Source of the DNA: Bryobacterales bacterium
GTDB taxonomy: Bacteria > Acidobacteriota > Terriglobia > Bryobacterales > Bryobacteraceae
Direction of reading: 5' to 3'
DNA length: 64,000 nt
NCBI GenBank assembly: GCA_016789745.1
Contig: JAEUQF010000118.1
Location: 1-64,000 of the forward strand
In this document: piece by piece, positions 37,694-46,540 of the stretch
Numbering within the stretch: the first letter of the stretch is position 1
Layout: each line of letters opens with the position of its first letter
Program-made: the position numbers and the translations under genes
The notes under the pieces: generated by a model
What the model saw: only the letters and a program-made list of their open reading frames with translations
Database searches by the model: none
What the model was told of the DNA's origin: nothing

Positions 37694-38245
37694 ATGAAAT
37701 ACCTACCCGGTGTCGTGCTGGCGTGTGTGGTGGTTGGAGATGTGCTGTTTGCCGCGCTGCTGTGGCAGTTTCTCCAACGGCGGAACAGCCTCGGTAAACT
37801 GCTGTGGGAGGCACCCCGTGCGCGTTCCTGGCTAACGATATTCTGGCTGGTGTACGGCGCCGGGAACGTTGCCAACGCACTATACCGCGGGCCAGGCCTG
37901 GATCCCGCCGACCCGCTGGATCATGCCTTCGACTACGGGTTCGGCGGCACCCTGGTCGCCATCTCCTTATCCTCGCTCCTCCTCACTCGCGGGTTACGCG
38001 TATATGAAGCCGGCATCATTCATTCGTTTCTGGTGATGCCGTGGAAAGACATCCGCGGTTGGGCGTGGGAAGATCACGGACCGCCGGCAGGCAGAGAACT
38101 GTATCTGTGGAGTGGAGCGGCGTGGCGCTGGTATCTGACGTTGCGTTCGAAGTCGCCCGTCAAAACCAGCACTGCTTATGACGATCAGTTGGACGGCCTG
38201 CTGCAACACTACGCCCCAACGGCCACAACCGCCACCCGCACATAG
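37694..38245 (+). CDS. Small membrane protein, unknown function (intact paralogue)
   Basis: The ATG at 37694 is preceded by GGGAAG four bases upstream. The 183-residue protein has three transmembrane segments (VVLACVVVGDVLFAALLW; TIFWLVYGAGNVANALY; GGTLVAISLSSLLLTRG). A C-terminal PH-like beta region (IIHSFLVMPWKDIRGWAWE, ELYLWSGAAWRWYLTL) resembles bacterial 'bPH' membrane-protein domains that read W-x-x-I-x-xW. The gene upstream is a decayed copy. Its 3' end overlaps that of convergent rtcA by 37 bp. Confidence 0.75.
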   Translation: MKYLPGVVLACVVVGDVLFAALLWQFLQRRNSLGKLLWEAPRARSWLTIFWLVYGAGNVANALYRGPGLDPADPLDHAFDYGFGGTLVAISLSSLLLTRGLRVYEAGIIHSFLVMPWKDIRGWAWEDHGPPAGRELYLWSGAAWRWYLTLRSKSPVKTSTAYDDQLDGLLQHYAPTATTATRT

Positions 38246-39234
38246 CCCTCTTCTTCCGCCGTCTCAAAGCGCACCGGCAGAAAGCGCGGGATCACTTCCA
38301 TGTTGGTTTGCGCGTGACGGCTGATCTTCAATGCCGCGAAAGACCCGCGACCCGCCAGCGCCATCGGCAGCAGCAGTTGATCGGTGAGATGCTCGCCCGC
38401 CACCGCGCGCGATACCAGGTACTCGCGCGTCTCCCGGGCCGCCGTTGCCGCTACCTTCTCCGCAGTCACGCCGAGTTGCCCAAAGGCGGTGAACACTTCG
38501 GTTCCCTGCGCCGATCCGGCTTCAATCATGACCACGTTCCCCGGGCCGGGCGATTCGCGCGTTTGCACAATCTCGCCGGCTTCAGGCGCCCAGTTCAGCA
38601 TGGACAAGGCGGTATCCACTTCGCGGCGGCCGATGTGGCGCTGCAGGTTCGCCAATACGGCCGTCACCTTGCGAGTGACAATGTCGCCGCGCGGTTCCAA
38701 GTGGACCGGCCGCAGCGCAGGGCAAGGCTCTACCGACACGGTAAACCTCCCTCCCCCGGCCGGATAGAAGCCATAGCGTTCCAAGGCTACCGTGACCTTC
38801 GGCCCCATGCGCTCCACCAGGGGAAGAAAGGCCTTCGCGAGGAACTCGAAGGGCGGCGCCGCCTGGTTGTGCGTACCGCCTTCGATGATCACGCGGCTGG
38901 GCCCATCGGCCAGCAGCAGCGCCGGCAGCACGGTCTGCAGCACCAGCGTCCCGCTGCCCGCCGTCCCCACCGCGAAATGATACTCGCCGGCCCGCACGCG
39001 CCCCGGCGTGAACGTCAGAGCCTGCGATCCCAGTTCCGCGCCGTCCGCCTGCCCAGCACCGACTTCAGCCGCCGCCAGCACGGCCGTCAAATGCTGCCGC
39101 AGCAGCCCAGGCTTGACGCGCCCGGCGCGGATGTTTTCGATCGCGAAGGGCTGCCCGGTAACCAGGGAGAGGCTGAGCGACGTGCGCAGAATCTGCCCGC
39201 CGCCCTCGCCGAACGATCCATCGATCCGAATCAT
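38209..39234 (-). CDS. rtcA: RNA 3'-terminal phosphate cyclase RtcA
   Basis: The 341-residue protein starts MIRIDGSFGEGGGQILRTS, the family N-terminal signature. It has the other RtcA motifs: AGTAGSGTLVLQT-type glycine loop (read as GTAGSGTLVLQTVLP), EGGTHNQAAPPFEFL and YPAGGGRFT. A His in the C-terminal part would carry AMP. RtcA converts RNA 3'-phosphates to 2',3'-cyclic phosphates via AMP transfer. Length equals the E. coli enzyme (about 340). Strong ribosome-binding site GGGAGGA. It follows rtcB by 17 bp and is the last gene of the RNA-repair operon. Confidence 0.96.
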   Translation of the reverse strand: MIRIDGSFGEGGGQILRTSLSLSLVTGQPFAIENIRAGRVKPGLLRQHLTAVLAAAEVGAGQADGAELGSQALTFTPGRVRAGEYHFAVGTAGSGTLVLQTVLPALLLADGPSRVIIEGGTHNQAAPPFEFLAKAFLPLVERMGPKVTVALERYGFYPAGGGRFTVSVEPCPALRPVHLEPRGDIVTRKVTAVLANLQRHIGRREVDTALSMLNWAPEAGEIVQTRESPGPGNVVMIEAGSAQGTEVFTAFGQLGVTAEKVAATAARETREYLVSRAVAGEHLTDQLLLPMALAGRGSFAALKISRHAQTNMEVIPRFLPVRFETAEEEGYVRVAVVAVGA

Positions 39235-39251: not shown

Positions 39252-40484
39252 CTAACCCTTCACGCAGACAACCTGGCGCAGCGTATGCACAATCTCCACC
39301 AGGTCCGTCTGCGCCGCCATCACGGCGTCAATCGACTTGTAGGCCGCCGGCGTTTCGTCGATCACGTCGGCGTCCTTACGGCACTCCACTCCTTCGGTCA
39401 TGCGCGCATGATCGGCCACCGTGAAGCGCCGCTTGGCCTCATTGCGGGACATGGCCCGGCCCGCCCCGTGGCTGCACGAATGGAAGCTTTCCGGGTTGCC
39501 CTTGCCGCGCACAATATAGGATCGCGCACCCATGCTGCCGGGGATGATCCCCATATCGCCCTCGCGCGCCCGCACCGCGCCCTTGCGGGTGATGAGGACG
39601 TTCTGGCCATAGTGCGATTCGCGCGCCACATAGTTGTGATGGCAGTTGATGGCCTGCACTTCGGCGGTAAACTCGGGCACCTCGCCCGAACGCCGCACGG
39701 CGCCCACGATCTGCTGCATCATCAGGTGCCGATTCCAGCGCGCGAACTCCTGCGCCCACTCAACGGCCTCCACGTAGTCGGCGAAATGGTCCGTGCCTTC
39801 CGGGAAGTACGCCAGATCGATGTCGGGCAGGTTGATGAAGTGGCGCCGCATGTCCTGGCGCGCGAGTTCGATGAAGTAGGTGCCCATGCGGTTCCCTACC
39901 CCGCGCGAGCCGCTATGCAGCATGAACCACACGGTCTCGGCTTCATCCAGGCACACCTCAATGAAATGATTCCCGGTGCCGAGGGTGCCAAGGTGGTTGG
40001 CGTGGTTGCCGCGCGCGAGTTTGGGATGCTTGGCCAGGATCGCGTTGTAGCGCGGCTCCAGTTCGGCCGTCCAGACCTGCTCGTTGCGCTCCGGAATGTT
40101 GTGCCAGGCGCCGCGGTCGCCGGCCTTGCCGTGATTGGTGCGGCCGTGCGGGACGGCGTTCTCGATGGCGGCACGAATGGCCTTGAGATTGTCCGGCAGG
40201 TCGCGGGCATTGAGGCTGGTCTGCACGGCCATCATGCCACAGCCGATGTCGACCCCCACGGCAGCCGGAATGATGGCGCCCTTGGTGGGGATGACGCTTC
40301 CGATCGTGGCGCCGACGCCCCAATGCACGTCGGGCATAGCAGCGATCCACTTGTAGATGAACGGCAACTGCGCCGCATTTACCAACTGCCGGCGCGCTTC
40401 ATCTTCCAACGGGACGCCCTTGGTCCAGGCCTTGATGGGCAGCCCGTTCTCGGGGGTGATGATGTTGTATGTTGTCTCGGCCAT
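39252..40484 (-). CDS. rtcB: RNA ligase RtcB
   Basis: This 410-residue RtcB has the metal and guanylylation signatures: MPDVHWGVGATIGSVIP, VGVDIGCGMMAV (Cys/Asp metal site), GTLGTGNHFIEVC, HSGSRGVGN and the C-terminal GAGRAMSR that precedes the catalytic guanylylated His region. RtcB joins 2',3'-cyclic phosphate or 3'-phosphate RNA ends to 5'-OH ends using GTP and Mn2+. AGGGAGGA lies eight bases before the ATG. The leader between rsr and rtcB carries two Y RNAs, the nearer ending 33 nt upstream of the start codon. It is shorter than E. coli-clade archaeal enzymes but typical of bacterial Rtc operons. Confidence 0.96.
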   Translation of the reverse strand: MAETTYNIITPENGLPIKAWTKGVPLEDEARRQLVNAAQLPFIYKWIAAMPDVHWGVGATIGSVIPTKGAIIPAAVGVDIGCGMMAVQTSLNARDLPDNLKAIRAAIENAVPHGRTNHGKAGDRGAWHNIPERNEQVWTAELEPRYNAILAKHPKLARGNHANHLGTLGTGNHFIEVCLDEAETVWFMLHSGSRGVGNRMGTYFIELARQDMRRHFINLPDIDLAYFPEGTDHFADYVEAVEWAQEFARWNRHLMMQQIVGAVRRSGEVPEFTAEVQAINCHHNYVARESHYGQNVLITRKGAVRAREGDMGIIPGSMGARSYIVRGKGNPESFHSCSHGAGRAMSRNEAKRRFTVADHARMTEGVECRKDADVIDETPAAYKSIDAVMAAQTDLVEIVHTLRQVVCVKG

Positions 40485-40517
40485 GGTTGCGTTCCTCCCT
40501 AATCATTGTTAAATCTT

Positions 40518-40638
40518 CCCTGGCGACAAAGAAAGAAGAGACATGTGCTCTGCCAACTGAGCTACCGCCCCGCAAGGTGGTGGAGCGGCCCGGACTCGAA
40601 CCGGGGACGCCATGTAGTCCCTTCGGCATTCGCCAGGA
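40518..40638 (-). ncRNA. Y RNA (YrlA type) containing a complete circularly permuted tRNA
   Basis: The 121-nt RNA is closed by a 9-bp helix, UCCUGGCGA (40638-40630) with UCGCCAGGG (40526-40518). An internal loop and a second helix follow (GAAGGGAC 40624-40617 with GUCUCUUC 40542-40535). Inside lies a full tRNA in permuted order: anticodon-stem 3' strand ACAUG (40615-40611), 5-nt variable loop, T-stem CCCGG/CCGGG with loop UUCGAGU, acceptor CCGCUCC, then A-CCA (40581-40578), a 6-nt linker, acceptor GGGGCGG (40571-40565), UA, D-stem GCUC/GAGC with loop AGUUGGCA, and CAUGU (40545-40541). All stems pair and all spacings are canonical. The Ro stem replaces the anticodon loop, as in YrlA. Position between rsr and rtcB supports it. 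Confidence 0.9.
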
Positions 40639-40654: not shown

Positions 40655-40780
40655 GCCCTGGCGACAAGAAGTGGCAGAGAGTTAATCCGCACCTTGCGGC
40701 GCGGCCGCGGGACTTGAACTCCGCTCAGCTAACCTTTTGGGCAGCCTTACCATGTACTCCCAACCTGCATTCGCCAGGGC
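40655..40780 (-). ncRNA. Second, diverged Y RNA with tRNA-like module
   Basis: The 126-nt RNA is closed by a perfect 10-bp helix, GCCCUGGCGA (40780-40771) with UCGCCAGGGC (40664-40655). It shares CUGGCGAAUGC near the 5' end and CUUCUU..GUCGCCAGGG near the 3' end with the other Y RNA. Inside are a T-arm-like hairpin (GCGG and CCGC around GUUCAAGUC, with one extra A) and a 7-bp acceptor-like stem closed by a GCAA tetraloop (CCGCGCC-GCAA-GGUGCGG). A canonical D-arm is not seen. It lies 16 nt upstream of the second Y RNA in the same transcript. Confidence 0.75.
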
Positions 40781-40832: not shown

Positions 40833-42359
40833 CTACGCCCGCACGCGTTCTATCTCGCCCACCCAGTGCCACGCTTGCAGCTTACCTCCCGCAAACAGCG
40901 ACACCAGTTCGAACACCGCGTCGGAAAACCCACCGACATTCAGTACTTCGTCGCGATCGGCCACCTGCACGGTCCGGTTCGGCTGGATATCCAAACACAC
41001 CAACCGCGCCCGCGGATTGCGCTTCCGCAGTTTCTCCCATTGCATCAGCATCGCCGTGCTACGCCCGCGGCCCGGGTCCACCCACGATTCGTTATCGGAA
41101 ACGAAGATCGCCAGGTCTACCTTGGCCTCCATCCGATTCAGCACCTTTAATGGGGCACTGCAATCGGTTCCGCCTCCGCCCACCGCGGCCAGCCTCTCGG
41201 CATTGGCCAGGATGCGGCCTTCGGGCTTCAGTTCCACCCGCACCACGTTCTGCTCAAACGGCAGCACCATGGCTTTTGGGTTCTTGCGCAGCACGGCGGC
41301 CGCGACCAGCGCGGCGACATCCACACAGCGGACAGCCGTTGTCGATCCCTTGCGACCGCCGGTCACCGGGCTCAACATGGAGCCCGATACATCGGGGCAT
41401 ACCACGACGCGTCCGGCCACCTCCGGCACTTGGTCCACGGCCAGTTCCATGGCGGCCTGCAGTGCATCACTGATCTCCTGCGGCGCGCGGCCTTTCGAAG
41501 CCTGAAACGCGGCCAGCAGTTGATACGGGAAGACACGAGCCTTCCGGATCTCGTCCTTATCGCACAGACGCTCGGCCAGGCGGCGAGTTAATGCCGCATC
41601 GGTAAACACGCCCTGGCGCAGAAACGTATTCAGGTTCATGCGCAGCGTCTGCCAGGAAGCACGGCGCGCCACGGCCCGCCAATCGTCCCCAGTCAACGAC
41701 AACGACGACAGCAGCGTAAACGGCACGTCGGGCGTCTGGCTGCGGTCGCCGGCCTTGAAGGCTTCGTACTGCCGCACCAGTTCGGGCAGCCGGTTCGCAG
41801 CATGCTCACGGCCCAGCAGATACCCATAGAATGCCTCGCGCTCTCGGCCGGCCGGCTTGGGGTGCACCATCTTCACCAGATCCGCCAGCGACGGGCTCTG
41901 GCCGGCGCTGGAGCGAAACAGCGATTCCTCGCGCTGGCTTTCCAGCCATTGCCGCACCAGGCGCTTCGGCGCCGTCCCTAACGAACGCCGGCCCACCACG
42001 CCCGACCGCAGAATCTGCACGTAATTGCGGAGCATGCGCAGGTTGTCGATGACGCGCCCGAACACGGCTTCGTGCAGCCGCGCATCGCGCTTCGACAGCC
42101 ACGCGCACAGCAAAGCCGGCATATCCTTCATGAATCCCCGCGTGCGGCTGTAGACGGCCGTGCGGGCCACGAACTCCGGCTCCACCTGCTCGCAGAGGCG
42201 CAGCACTTCGGCCAATTGCGCCTCGCCGGTGGCGTAGAAGGTGCGCGAGAAGCAGCCGGTGGCGGCGTATTGGGCCAGCGCGTGCTTGGCGGGCATGGCG
42301 TAGGCCAAAGCGCCGGCCTGATTGCGGGTCCTGGTCGCGAACAGCGTCTGGTTGGCCAT
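40833..42359 (-). CDS. rsr: Ro60/Rsr, TROVE-domain RNA-binding protein with vWA domain
   Basis: The start MANQTLF at 42359 lies nine bases after AAGGAG; an ATG at 42365 is only three bases from it. The 508-residue protein is a TROVE HEAT-repeat ring (about 1-330; YAATGCFSRTFYATGEAQLA, FMKDMPALLCAWLSKRD, LLSSLSLTGDDW). A von Willebrand A domain follows, with an intact MIDAS: DVSGS, GGGGTDCS and VSDNESW. Bacterial Rsr binds Y RNA on the outside of the ring and misfolded or damaged RNA in the hole, and tethers PNPase in Deinococcus. It is first in the operon, ahead of the Y RNAs, rtcB and rtcA. Confidence 0.96.
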   Translation of the reverse strand: MANQTLFATRTRNQAGALAYAMPAKHALAQYAATGCFSRTFYATGEAQLAEVLRLCEQVEPEFVARTAVYSRTRGFMKDMPALLCAWLSKRDARLHEAVFGRVIDNLRMLRNYVQILRSGVVGRRSLGTAPKRLVRQWLESQREESLFRSSAGQSPSLADLVKMVHPKPAGREREAFYGYLLGREHAANRLPELVRQYEAFKAGDRSQTPDVPFTLLSSLSLTGDDWRAVARRASWQTLRMNLNTFLRQGVFTDAALTRRLAERLCDKDEIRKARVFPYQLLAAFQASKGRAPQEISDALQAAMELAVDQVPEVAGRVVVCPDVSGSMLSPVTGGRKGSTTAVRCVDVAALVAAAVLRKNPKAMVLPFEQNVVRVELKPEGRILANAERLAAVGGGGTDCSAPLKVLNRMEAKVDLAIFVSDNESWVDPGRGRSTAMLMQWEKLRKRNPRARLVCLDIQPNRTVQVADRDEVLNVGGFSDAVFELVSLFAGGKLQAWHWVGEIERVRA

Positions 42360-42388
42360 TGTCATCGTCTCCTTACGCCTTATCTCAA

Positions 42389-42404
42389 TGCACCTGGCGT
42401 GCCA
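42389..42404 (-). promoter_or_regulatory. Sigma-54 (-24/-12) promoter of the rsr-Y RNA-rtcBA operon
   Basis: On the minus strand the site reads TGGCACGCCAGGTGCA. This matches TGGCAC-N5-TTGCA at every position but one (G for T), with invariant GG and GC at the correct spacing. It lies 30 bp before the rsr start codon and opposite the divergent rtcR gene, whose product is a sigma-54 activator. Confidence 0.85.
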
Positions 42405-42445
42405 AACGTAAGTCTTTGATAATAGGCACCACCGACCCAGATGAC

Positions 42446-42481
42446 TTATCCTATACGATAAACTCATAGATCTAGAGCTAT
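42446..42481. promoter_or_regulatory. Two 16-bp near-palindromes, candidate RtcR binding sites
   Basis: TTATCCTATACGATAA (42446-42461) and ATAGATCTAGAGCTAT (42466-42481) each match their reverse complement at 14 of 16 positions. Their centres are 20 bp apart, about two helical turns. They lie about 42-77 bp upstream of the -24 element of the rsr promoter, the usual place for a sigma-54 activator, and also cover the rtcR start region. Confidence 0.45.
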
Positions 42482-44069
42482 GAAGCATCGCAACGTGGTC
42501 ATCGGCCTGCTTGGCACCCAACTCGATATTGGCCGCAAACCCGATCGCTGGCAGGAGTGGCGCCCTTCGGTGGCTCTGTGCCGCCAGCCTGACATGGTGA
42601 TCAAGCGATTCGAACTACTGCATGGCTCGCGCGAGCAGACCGCTGCCGAATTGGTAGCGAAGGACATCGCGACGGTATCGCCGGAAACCGATGTGCGGCG
42701 CCACGTCATCGATTTCGGCGACCCCTGGGATTTCGAGCAGGTGTTCGAAGCGCTATTCGAGTTCGCCCGGGCGTATCCCTTCGATACGGACGCCGAAGAC
42801 TACCTCATCCACATCACCACGGGCACGCACGTAGCGCAGATCTGCCTGTTCCTGCTGACCGAATCGCGCTATCTGCCGGGAAGGTTGCTGCAGGCGTCGC
42901 CCGAACGCGACCGCAGCGCCCCGGGTGAGGCGAAGATCATCGATCTCGATCTGTCACGGTATGACCGCATTGCATCGCGCCACCAGCAGGAACGCCGCAA
43001 TGCTTTGTCTTATCTGAAGAACGGCATCGCCACCCGCAACGCCGGCTTCAACCGGCTGATGGAACGTATTGAGCAGGTGGCCATCGCCACGCGTGATCCG
43101 CTGCTGCTGACAGGTCCCACGGGCGCGGGCAAGTCGCAACTGGCACGGCGGATCTATGAGTTGAAGAAGATGCGCCATGCGGTGAAGGGCGACTTCGTCG
43201 ATGTGAACTGTGCAACGCTCCGCGGGGACGGCGCCATGTCGACGCTGTTCGGCCATACCAAGGGCGCGTTCACCGGCGCGTTGAAGGATCGGCCGGGGCT
43301 GCTGCGCACGGCCGACCAGGGAGTGTTGTTTCTCGATGAGATCGGCGAACTCGGCCTGGACGAACAGGCGATGTTGTTGCGGGCGCTGGAAGACAAAACC
43401 TTCCTTCCGCTTGGCTCCGACCGTCCCAGCCGCAGCGATTTCCAACTGATTGCAGGCACCAATCGCGACCTGCAGGCCGGTGTGCGCGACGGCCGGTTTC
43501 GAGAAGACCTGCTGGCGCGGATCAACCTGTGGACCTTCAGTTTGCCCGGCCTGCGCCAGCGGCCGGAGGACATTGAGCCGAACCTGGCGTATGAGTTGGA
43601 CTGCGCGGCTAGGCGCACGGGCCACCAGGTGACGTTCAGCAAAGAGGCGCGGCAGAGGTTTCTGGACTTTGCGCTGTCGCCGGCGGCGGCGTGGAACGGC
43701 AACTTCCGGGATTTGAATGCCGCGGTGGCGCGGATGGGCACGCTGGCGCCCGGAGGCCGCATTTCCGTGGAGGTGGTGGAAGAAGAGATCGCAAGGTTGG
43801 CGGCTGGGTGGTCGGGTCCGGAGGCGCGGGAGGACGACCCGCTGGCGGCGATCCTGAGCGAGGAACAACGGGCGGAGTTGGATCCCTTCGACCGGGTGCA
43901 ATTGGAACATGTCGTGGAGGTTTGTGCGAAGTCGCGGAGTTTGTCGGAGGCGGGGCGGCAGTTGTTTCGCGCCTCGCGTAGCCGGAAGGCGAGCACCAAT
44001 GATGCCGACCGGCTGCGGAAGTACCTGCAGCGATTCGGCCTGGACTGGAGCACTCTCCAGTTTCCATAG
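42480..44069 (+). CDS. rtcR: RtcR, CARF-domain sigma-54-dependent activator of the rtc operon
   Basis: The 529-residue protein has an N-terminal CARF-like RtcR domain (about 1-180; NVVIGLLGTQLDIG, IDFGDPWDFEQVFEALFEFA, IHITTGTHVAQICLFLLTES). The AAA+ bEBP domain covers about 185-430: Walker A TGPTGAGKS, the sigma-54 contact loop GAFTGA, Walker B VLFLDEIGEL and TNRDLQAGVRDGRFREDLL. A helix-turn-helix region ends the protein (LVEVCAKSRSLSEAGRQLF-like stretch near 490). In E. coli the CARF domain senses RNA with 2',3'-cyclic phosphate ends, releasing the activator. Divergent from rsr with 120 bp between start codons. Confidence 0.96.
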   Translation: MKHRNVVIGLLGTQLDIGRKPDRWQEWRPSVALCRQPDMVIKRFELLHGSREQTAAELVAKDIATVSPETDVRRHVIDFGDPWDFEQVFEALFEFARAYPFDTDAEDYLIHITTGTHVAQICLFLLTESRYLPGRLLQASPERDRSAPGEAKIIDLDLSRYDRIASRHQQERRNALSYLKNGIATRNAGFNRLMERIEQVAIATRDPLLLTGPTGAGKSQLARRIYELKKMRHAVKGDFVDVNCATLRGDGAMSTLFGHTKGAFTGALKDRPGLLRTADQGVLFLDEIGELGLDEQAMLLRALEDKTFLPLGSDRPSRSDFQLIAGTNRDLQAGVRDGRFREDLLARINLWTFSLPGLRQRPEDIEPNLAYELDCAARRTGHQVTFSKEARQRFLDFALSPAAAWNGNFRDLNAAVARMGTLAPGGRISVEVVEEEIARLAAGWSGPEAREDDPLAAILSEEQRAELDPFDRVQLEHVVEVCAKSRSLSEAGRQLFRASRSRKASTNDADRLRKYLQRFGLDWSTLQFP

Positions 44070-44116: not shown

Positions 44117-46540
44117 TCAGTGACTGGCCACAAAGGGCGAACTCATTCCCGGATGTGCGAGTCTGACGTTTGCGACATCGCGATCTGGCGGTATCACGGC
44201 AAACCCGGGTGAGAGGTCAACCAGATCGGAGATCGCATAGAGCGCCAGTGACAACGATTGGATCCCATTCCCGGACAGAACAATCGACTCCAGCTTCTGC
44301 AGCCGGGACAGAGGCACGGCCACATCGCGCAGACGGTTCTCCCCGAGGTTTGCCACTTTGAGTTCCTGGAGATCTCCGAACCCCTGCGGGAGGTGCTCCA
44401 GATGGTTTCTACTCACGTCGAGCGTTTCCAGTGCCGTCAGCCGTTCGATTCCCGCGGGCAGCTGATCCAACCCGCAGCCGGCGAGATTGAGCCACCGCAA
44501 TTCCGTCAACTGGGCGAGACAATCCGTGGCGAACGGCACTTTGTTATCGCTAAGGTCCAGGTGCCGCAAGTGCCTGAAGCCACGCAGGTTGGCAGGCAGA
44601 TGGCGCAGGCCGTTGGACGCAATCCCCAGGTGTTCCAGATCCGGTAGTGGGGGAAGCTGGCGAAGTCCGTTCTGGAGGTCATTCCCGCCCAGTTCCAATT
44701 TCTTCAGACTTCGCAGATCCTGCAGGCTCGTCGGAATCTGACGAAGTTTGTTCTGAGAGAGGATTAGCGTCTTCAGGTTCCGGAGCTTGCCGATGGTCTC
44801 GGGAAGGGCCGCCAGACTCCCAAGCACCGTCAATGTCTCAAGGTTCTCCAAGCCGCCGGTTTCGTCAGGAAGAGCGGTAAGCTCGCCTGCCGAAACGCTC
44901 AGATCCTTCAGTTTCCCCAGTTCGCCAATCCAGGCCGGCAAACGGCGAAGCGTCGGAGACTTCAGTGACAGGACCTCAAGATCAGCGCAGTCGCGCACCC
45001 AGTCCGGAAGGCTGTCGGAACCCCAATCTTCCAGGTCCAGCGCCTTCAAGCCGGCGGGTGCGACGCCACCCGTGCAGCGCGCTTGCAAGAGGGCGAGACG
45101 CTCGACTTTCGGAAGGCGCTCCGGATTCCAATCACCGCCGCTCACACACAGCGTCGGGATCCCGTCCATACCCCGGATCGCCTGCGACAACGCCTGCGAG
45201 CCGCGTGCCTGTAGCGTTTCCAGGCGCAACTGGCGGAGAGACGGCAGCGTATCCACAGGGTTATCGCCCAGATATAGGTATTTCAGAGCCGGAAGGCCCC
45301 CAACCCATGCGGGCAGGCTGGTCAGCCGATTCCCCCACAGGGCCAAAATCTCCAGATGGCGCAATCCGGCGATGCTCTCGGGAAGTTCCTCCAGGTCGTT
45401 CGCCGCTAGTGTCACGTCCCGCAGTAGCGGATTCCCGCCAATGAGCTCTCCCAGAGCCGCGGGCCGCATGCCGTTCGACTGAAGCGAGAGAACCTCCAAC
45501 CCGCCGCATTGGCCCATCAATTCAGGTACTGCCCCGTTCGAGACGGTGAGAGACTTCAGGACGGCAAACGGACGGTTCCCGCTGTCAGGTGGAAGCGGCT
45601 CAAACTCGAACATCTGCTGCTGGTGGCCGAAGCCGCAGTTCAACAGCACGAGACTCGAGAGCCGGGGTAAACGGGCAACAAATGCCGGGATCCTCACTGG
45701 CAAGACCGGGTTCAGACACAACGCCTCCAACTCCGAACTACGTTCCAGCGACGCCGGGACACAAATCGCGTGCCGGCCGCAGTCGTTTGTTACGGACCCC
45801 ACTTCGATGGCGAACGTCCGCAGCCGCGGCAGATCGGGAAGATCAAAGGCATCCATCCCGGTTTTGCGGACACGGAGGTTCTCCACATGGCCGAGGGCGT
45901 CGAGCCATCGGGGAGACCGGTTGTGGATGTCCAGCACGGGAGTCGAATCCCCGGCTTGCAGGGCCCGCCGAAACCGGTACTCCCAGACTTCCTCCTGGCT
46001 GGGTGGTACGTTCGAACGGTAAGACTCAAGCAGCGCCGGCGGGAGGACGTTCACCTGCGGTGGGCCCACGAAAATCGTCAGCCCCCGCCGGCTGCTGAGT
46101 TCCGCGGAAACGGATTGCACCGGGTTTGAGGTGACCACCAGCCGCTTCAACCGCGGTAACGCCGCGAGGTGCCCGGGCACCTCTCGAAGCCGGTTCGCGG
46201 CGATGTCCAACTCCTCGAGGGAGGCCCAAGCGTGGGGGATCTCCGGCCACGCCTCAATCCGGTTCTGATACACCCAGAGCGTGCGTAGAGCGGGCAGTCC
46301 GGCCAACACCCCTGGTACTGACGAAAGCTGGTTGTCAAACAGCCAGAGTTCCCGCAGATTCTGAAGGGCGGCCATTTGCTCTGGCAGGCTGGTCAGGGCA
46401 TTGTTCGATACCGAGAGGAACTCCAGACTCTCGCATGCGAACAACGACGGCGGGAGTTCCGTCAATTCCATGCGGGATAAGTCGAGTCTCCTGGCACCCG
46501 ACTGTCTGGCACTTCGAATCGCCGCTTCTGCCCTGCTCAT
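44117..46540 (-). CDS. Cytoplasmic leucine-rich-repeat protein
   Basis: The 807-residue protein lacks a signal peptide or membrane segment and consists of about 25-30 LRRs. A typical unit is L-x-x-LxLxxNxLxxLPxxxxxL (for example LEFLSVSNNALTSLPEQM). Two less regular inserts occur near 160-300 and 430-520. This is the bacterial 'Ras-LRR'-like plant-type pattern but without GTPase, kinase or E3 domain. It is convergent with rtcR (47 bp between stop codons). No evidence ties it to RNA repair beyond proximity. Protein-protein interaction scaffold by inference. Confidence 0.85.
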   Translation of the reverse strand: MSRAEAAIRSARQSGARRLDLSRMELTELPPSLFACESLEFLSVSNNALTSLPEQMAALQNLRELWLFDNQLSSVPGVLAGLPALRTLWVYQNRIEAWPEIPHAWASLEELDIAANRLREVPGHLAALPRLKRLVVTSNPVQSVSAELSSRRGLTIFVGPPQVNVLPPALLESYRSNVPPSQEEVWEYRFRRALQAGDSTPVLDIHNRSPRWLDALGHVENLRVRKTGMDAFDLPDLPRLRTFAIEVGSVTNDCGRHAICVPASLERSSELEALCLNPVLPVRIPAFVARLPRLSSLVLLNCGFGHQQQMFEFEPLPPDSGNRPFAVLKSLTVSNGAVPELMGQCGGLEVLSLQSNGMRPAALGELIGGNPLLRDVTLAANDLEELPESIAGLRHLEILALWGNRLTSLPAWVGGLPALKYLYLGDNPVDTLPSLRQLRLETLQARGSQALSQAIRGMDGIPTLCVSGGDWNPERLPKVERLALLQARCTGGVAPAGLKALDLEDWGSDSLPDWVRDCADLEVLSLKSPTLRRLPAWIGELGKLKDLSVSAGELTALPDETGGLENLETLTVLGSLAALPETIGKLRNLKTLILSQNKLRQIPTSLQDLRSLKKLELGGNDLQNGLRQLPPLPDLEHLGIASNGLRHLPANLRGFRHLRHLDLSDNKVPFATDCLAQLTELRWLNLAGCGLDQLPAGIERLTALETLDVSRNHLEHLPQGFGDLQELKVANLGENRLRDVAVPLSRLQKLESIVLSGNGIQSLSLALYAISDLVDLSPGFAVIPPDRDVANVRLAHPGMSSPFVASH

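Follow-up and report, generated by a model that had tools for sequence, protein, structure and literature searches.

A YrlA-class Y RNA from a Bryobacterales RNA-repair operon with a predicted circularly permuted tRNA domain and an encoded internal CCA

A review describes the tRNA mimicry of bacterial Y RNAs of the YrlA type for the D, T and acceptor arms only; YrlA is a substrate of DusA and TruB and tethers Rsr to PNPase (PMC8394870). The purpose of this mimicry is a simple and long-standing question. In Salmonella, the genes are arranged as rsr-yrlBA-rtcBA and are induced via RtcR by tRNA fragments (PMC7790460). The same arrangement is found in the DNA analysed here, a stretch of 64,000 nucleotides from contig JAEUQF010000118.1 of a soil bacterium of the Bryobacterales, which we call the window. 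Our sequence analysis indicates that an RNA encoded on the minus strand of the window belongs, as its YrlA, to an rsr-yrlB-yrlA-rtcBA RNA-repair operon, and that it carries a circularly permuted tRNA domain on a Ro-binding helix, with an encoded purine-CCA at nucleotides (nt) 73 to 76 of the tRNA numbering.

The RNA matched the Rfam covariance model of YrlA (RF02553) at positions 40636-40517 of the minus strand with 70.8 bits (gathering threshold, 69; E value, 3e-14), and a chance fold is ruled out by this match. Besides the score, the Ro helix, the neighbouring rsr (Ro60) gene and the D, T and acceptor arms agree with the assignment to YrlA. The free minimum free energy (MFE) fold of the minus strand (-52.7 kcal/mol; z = -2.7 against dinucleotide shuffles, 3 of 200 of which were equally stable) contained the Ro helix, a 5-bp ACAUG/CAUGU stem, a 5-bp T stem, a 7-bp acceptor and a 4-bp D stem. 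The acceptor, GGGGCGG/CCGCUCC, consists of six Watson-Crick pairs and one wobble, G3:U70. An original prediction, made from the letters of the sequence, had claimed that the acceptor, D, anticodon and T stems all pair, that the variable loop, T loop and discriminator plus CCA are standard, and that a 6-nt linker follows the CCA. All the claimed pairings are present in both the sequence and the MFE fold, and the A73, CCA and linker are as claimed. The parts of the RNA are as follows.

40517-40638, minus strand: whole YrlA-class Y RNA (RF02553 match 40636-40517; fold)
40630-40637, minus strand: Ro/Rsr-binding helix, 5' strand (CCUGGCGA), then a conserved AUGC (fold; GCGAAUGC motif of the relatives)
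40611-40615, minus strand: nt 39-43, ACAUG, 3' strand of a stem that occupies the anticodon-stem position and continues into the Ro helix (fold)
40606-40610, minus strand: variable loop, nt 44-48, GCGUC, with C48 as the Levitt partner of G15 (parsing into tRNA coordinates)
40589-40605, minus strand: T arm, nt 49-65, CCCGG UUCGAGU CCGGG (fold, parsing)
40582-40588, minus strand: acceptor 3' strand, nt 66-72, CCGCUCC, U70 pairing with G3 (fold, parsing)
40578-40581, minus strand: A73 (discriminator), followed by the encoded internal CCA at 40580-40578, nt 74-76 (sequence; CCA enrichment in the family)
40572-40577, minus strand: 6-nt linker CCUUGC from the CCA to nt 1 (sequence)
40565-40571, minus strand: acceptor 5' strand, nt 1-7, GGGGCGG, with a putative RNase P cut 5' of G1 at 40571 (sequence, fold)
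40547-40562, minus strand: D arm, nt 10-25, GCUC AGUUGGCA GAGC (fold, parsing)
40541-40545, minus strand: nt 27-31, CAUGU, pairing with nt 39-43 (fold)
40519-40537, minus strand: Ro/Rsr-binding helices, 3' strands (fold, Rfam alignment)

The Ro-binding helix GCGAAUGC/UUGUCGC is present in the window RNA, and GCGAAUGC is common to all relatives. Positions 8-9 are U8-A9, position 26 is A26, and the tRNA-like tertiary positions are U8:A14, G15:C48, G18G19 and U54:A58. When the RNA was put into tRNA order and the Ro helix was swapped for an arbitrary 7-nt loop, all 50 trials with ARAGORN gave a tRNA call, but it called none in the native order. The claimed circular permutation and canonical tRNA geometry are supported. 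The acceptor, D and T arms and the tertiary positions of a permuted tRNA gene are all present in permuted order, and the anticodon loop is absent. The original prediction that the Ro helix replaces this loop needs the nuance that the "anticodon stem" runs on into the Ro helix. The pair of features of a tRNA-Ala-like acceptor, G3:U70 and A73, is also present.

Relatives were sought in 84,980 species genomes with a search pattern in which only the Ro motif and the T loop were fixed, so that the acceptor, the linker and the anticodon region could vary freely; all figures given below apply among the matches listed. Genus and family relatives and two viral contigs were added, and at least 133 YrlA-type RNAs from Proteobacteria, Verrucomicrobia, Planctomycetes and Acidobacteria were parsed into tRNA coordinates. 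An rsr homologue was present on the same fetched stretch in 96 of 109 YrlA loci (the window's own rsr not counted), and 90 of the 109 had an rtcB match with E <1e-5, some just ~27% identical. A pattern search of the Acidobacteria phylum was positive in just 4 of 396 genomes.

In a set of 105 RNAs preselected for at least six acceptor pairs, pairs 2:71 to 6:67 were formed in 101 to 105 RNAs with six pair types each, whereas shuffle controls gave means of 47 to 59 and maxima of 60 to 72; pair 1:72 was formed in 90 of the 105. With no acceptor filter, all seven acceptor pairs were found in 80 of 133 RNAs. Covariation was also seen at the T-stem pairs 49:65 and 51:63, and the Levitt pair G15:C48 or A15:U48 was present in 123 of 133 RNAs, whereas none of 2000 shuffles gave more than 103. 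For 12 diverse members, RNAalifold independently predicted the Ro-proximal helix, the anticodon hairpin and the T, acceptor and D stems, with compensatory changes at 16 of 29 pairs. The search itself dictates the pairs of the D stem and the two inner ones of the T stem, which are hence uninformative as a test. The comparison with shuffles and the RNAalifold result show that the stems claimed for the window RNA are conserved in its relatives. Together, these data indicate that the permuted tRNA fold of YrlAs is real and old, that permutation is the norm of the family, and that covariation preserves the acceptor stem, the T stem and the tertiary pair 15:48 from phylum to phylum. As permutation is the rule for YrlA, that of the window RNA is not special.

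Many relatives have an anticodon arm as well. Among 74 RNAs with at least 20 nt between ACUA and the T stem, pairs 29-31:39-41 enclosed exactly 7 nt in 59, whereas the neighbouring register gave 1 case in 70, and pairs 27:43 and 28:42 were formed in 70 and 69 of the 74, respectively, and covaried. The 59 complete arms (2 + 3 bp and a 7-nt loop; 59 of the 133 parsed RNAs) had U33 in 57 cases, a purine at position 37 in 56 and a pyrimidine at position 32 in 57. Their anticodons vary, CUU being the most frequent, and an initiator-like CUCAUAA loop was found in locus L033 and in one of the two YrlAs of L061, both from Bryobacterales. ARAGORN called a tRNA in 71 of the 74 unpermuted sequences, including all 17 CCA-bearing ones; for this analysis CCA was added to CCA-less RNAs, and those with no linker nucleotides were given A73 as well. 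Since the Ro helix of arm-bearing YrlAs is inserted between nt 28 and 29, such a YrlA is by sequence a complete permuted tRNA. The data indicate that the mimicry in many lineages is that of a whole tRNA, with an anticodon arm with U33 and R37, the 15:48 pair, the tRNA-Ala wobble and the purine-CCA in place. In the Rfam YrlA alignment the anticodon hairpin is a 13-nt unmodelled insert, and the CCA is likewise not in the model. Our literature search found no paper uniting "permuted tRNA" and "Y RNA"; primary YrlA papers lay outside this search and may already mention the arm or the CCA. Because it has no anticodon loop, the window RNA is not the most complete case, and the "perfect retention" ascribed to it is overstated, as many relatives keep the whole anticodon arm and the window RNA does not.

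The internal CCA was analysed in 85 non-identical YrlAs that have six or more acceptor pairs and whose linker measures 4 nt or more. In 20 of the 85, CCA was located exactly at positions 74-76 (1.3 expected; p = 4e-18 versus 1/64), compared to 0 to 1 of the 85 at any other linker offset. The preceding nucleotide was A in 12, G in 7 and U in 1 of the 20, i.e., a purine in 19. The carriers comprise Rhodobacterales, Sphingomonadales, Hyphomicrobiales, Verrucomicrobia and the window RNA, and their distribution on a quick Rsr tree (84 rows) takes a minimum of 10 changes in CCA state. Culturable hosts of CCA-bearing YrlAs include Erythrobacter longus DSM 6997 (L167), Aliiroseovarius halocynthiae (L119) and Labrys okinawensis (L077). 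Further cases came from two more genome samples (G654, G706, G882 and G1018). The sequence after the CCA varies in length and letters, from a single U up to 39-41 nt with a hairpin, and linkers were longer in CCA-bearing than in CCA-less YrlAs (p = 1.5e-4). We conclude from these sequence comparisons that an internal CCA at 74-76 occurs beyond chance at the family level. The linkers of L096, L129 and L167 from Erythrobacteraceae (34-45 nt) start with ACCA and hold a GCGCU...AGCGC hairpin, resembling an intervening segment. The CCA-less YrlAs of L067, L074, L123, L131, L142 and L161 from Betaproteobacteria have a common linker loop, NNAUCAGG.

If the RNA is never cut beside it, a CCA within the molecule has no evident use, which renders the question what Y RNAs mimic tRNA for testable. 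For the CCA-bearing subset we tentatively favour a cut by RNase P and 3' trimming that would yield a nicked two-piece tRNA mimic. By analogy with characterised YrlAs, the Ro helix would be bound by Rsr, and the tRNA fold would be an effector module for enzymes that bind tRNA (dihydrouridine and pseudouridine synthases; tethering of PNPase). RNase P would recognise the acceptor/T helix and R73-C-C-A and cut 5' of G1, and exonucleases or another tRNA 3' nuclease would trim back to the CCA. The product would have a free 3' CCA, by a route like that proposed for two-piece transfer-messenger RNA (tmRNA). For cleavage, bacterial RNase P relies on a 3' RCCA motif (PMC12710915), with which the purine at position 73 agrees as an RNase P contact, and RNase P and tRNase Z have been proposed to process the precursors of permuted tmRNA (PMC3985003).

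Several points weigh against this proposal and the evidence behind it. The Ro motif and the T loop were fixed by the search pattern and the D arm by the parser, and for this reason these three parts are not independent tests. The binomial p value for CCA takes no account of sequence relatedness, and simple p values are inflated. CCA is absent from most YrlAs, and in some the acceptor is closed by a short loop. We know of no published nicking of YrlA. No Salmonella YrlA fragments were found after DNA damage, an observation that concerns an anticodon nuclease (PMC7790460). Positions 74-76 are CUA in L032 and GCA in one YrlA of L061, the two nearest relatives of the window RNA, and the CCA is therefore dispensable in this clade. 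Both triplets are one letter off CCA; two losses of an ancestral CCA make the shortest history, but one that shows CCA to be losable there. Strong selection, as originally suggested, is not shown for the lineage of the window, because its nearest relatives lack the CCA.

A serious, if somewhat doubtful, alternative is that the window RNA is an ordinary YrlA with a closed acceptor loop, acting in PNPase tethering or Rsr gating, whose CCA is inherited or fortuitous and without function. The Rfam consensus has a short closed acceptor loop and PNPase tethering requires no CCA (PMC8394870); because the nearest relatives lack CCA, an idle CCA in a closed loop comes close behind for the species of the window. 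Against this, a chance triplet would not keep to one offset, and CCA after a purine at exactly 74-76 is far above chance and recurrent on the Rsr tree.

It appears unlikely that the opened RNA is also charged with alanine, as tmRNA is, G1:C72, G2:C71, G3:U70, A73 and CCA forming a substrate of AlaRS. The window RNA carries this full set of determinants, and the G-U at pair 3 is fully conserved in tmRNA as an AlaRS determinant (PMC3985003). Among the 85 YrlAs, G3:U70 was present in 18 and U3:G70 in 3, and G3:U70 was associated with G1:C72, G2:C71 and A73 (12 of 18 versus 9 of 67 of the others; p = 2e-5). In the window RNA and its Bryobacterales orthologues, L032 and L061, G3:U70 and A73 are kept while other acceptor pairs change, pair 6:67 shifting from G-C to A-U. 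However, G3:U70 showed no significant link with CCA (6 of 18 versus 14 of 67; p = 0.21), and neither did it on independent pairs of the Rsr tree, which makes alanine charging a minority hypothesis. Moreover, most CCA-bearing YrlAs have other 3:70 pairs, and just one of the three Bryobacterales orthologues, the window RNA, has CCA. A tRNA-Ala(UGC) gene was not among the tRNA genes read from the host genome.

Bolder still, and improbable in our judgement, is the extended proposal that many YrlAs are complete permuted tRNAs on Ro60 and that the RCCA subset is opened by RNase P and 3' processing into aminoacylatable two-piece tRNAs with a free CCA, with alanine for the G3:U70 class including the window RNA. 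If it were true, RtcB from the same operon could seal the break in arm-bearing species and so release a bacterial permuted tRNA.

The genes of the locus stand in the order rsr, second Y RNA, YrlA, rtcB, rtcA, with rtcR divergent.

40833-42521, minus strand: rsr, Ro60 orthologue with TROVE and Ro60 vWA domains (domain matches)
40655-40780, minus strand: second Y RNA in a YrlB-like position, with the same Ro helix and no D arm (sequence, fold)
39252-40484, minus strand: rtcB, RNA ligase
38209-39234, minus strand: rtcA, RNA 3'-phosphate cyclase
42480-44069, plus strand: rtcR, sigma-54 activator, divergent

The second Y RNA forms a hairpin resembling a T arm, GCGGAGUUCAAGUCCCGC, besides a separate GC hairpin, and a leucine-rich-repeat protein of 807 amino acids (window 44117-46540) adjoins rtcR. 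The host genome is 10 Mb in size, and the closest Rsr sequences on the tree are from Bryobacterales.

The presence of RtcR, RtcA and RtcB in the operon would suit a tRNA domain that serves as a decoy for, or a sensor of, nucleases that damage tRNAs; its cleavage would spare tRNAs and feed RtcR, RtcA and RtcB. RtcR responds to tRNA fragments and a role as competitive inhibitor has been proposed (PMC7790460), and many relatives offer a canonical anticodon loop with varied anticodons. The window RNA, however, lacks this loop, and Salmonella YrlA was not cut by the RecA-dependent nuclease (PMC7790460), so that we consider this function quite unlikely.

Very improbable, finally, is a tRNA gene that recently moved beside rsr and was permuted, with CCA and perfect pairs as relics: all 30 tRNA genes read from the host genome encode CCA, so that a relic would carry it, and tandem tRNA genes, with their halves in the same succession, can deceive the YrlA model, but the permuted layout and pairs are family-wide and the window RNA is closer to the Y RNAs of sister species (53 of 59 positions equal to L032) than to any of its own tRNA genes examined (best, about 46 of 59). 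The recent origin from a tRNA gene considered in the original prediction was therefore rejected; the window RNA is an inherited Y RNA and not a fresh tRNA capture.

Many weak Rfam YrlA matches in relatives were likewise discarded, as they proved to be tandem tRNA-Gly/tRNA-Thr gene pairs (L040-L046 and L048), which mimic a permuted tRNA because a 3' half, a spacer and a 5' half follow in the same order. Such pairs also give a hint of a way in which permuted tRNAs could originate. tRNA genes of ordinary appearance, mainly Gln-UUG but also Asn and Pro, were found inside rsr/Y RNA loci of Rhodobacterales and other Alphaproteobacteria (L119:2768-2843, L115:378-453, L134:2547-2622, L091:5865-6212 and L085:153-228), one of them 5 nt past the 3' end of YrlA. 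Might these be spare tRNAs within an RNA-repair locus?

Among known systems, YrlA (RF02553) of the Salmonella and Deinococcus Rsr ribonucleoproteins shares with the window RNA the GCGAAUGC and UUGUCGC Ro helix, the T arm, an acceptor-like stem and the D arm in the same permuted order, as well as the rsr and rtcBA neighbourhood. The Rfam consensus has a short acceptor loop, no CCA and no anticodon hairpin, whereas the window RNA has a 7-bp acceptor, A73, CCA and a linker. Permuted two-piece tmRNA (RF04321) has the same succession of T arm, acceptor 3' strand, CCA, linker and acceptor 5' strand, with G3:U70 and A73. In contrast to it, the window RNA has no tag reading frame and no pseudoknots, and it has a Ro helix and a canonical D arm, which is deformed in tmRNA. 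An identity with permuted tmRNA was rejected: the window RNA scored 27.6 bits, in the acceptor/T part only, against a cut-off of 47, and the host has its own one-piece tmRNA (tag ANNQQFAYAA). A comparison of CCA with permuted tmRNA in the host carries no information, because all 16 of 16 alphaproteobacterial hosts have permuted tmRNA. The permuted tRNA genes of red and green algae and Thermofilum pendens mature to translating tRNAs by a bulge-helix-bulge splice, whereas YrlA retains the Ro helix at the break point and the window RNA has no anticodon. CCA is encoded in two permuted tRNA genes of T. pendens, one of which has a spacer of 1 nt (PMC3978253), resembling the CCA-U-G1 of L091 and L100. 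With tRNA-Ala the window RNA shares G3:U70, G1:C72, G2:C71, A73 and CCA, from which it differs in being permuted, lacking an anticodon loop and being joined to a Ro helix.
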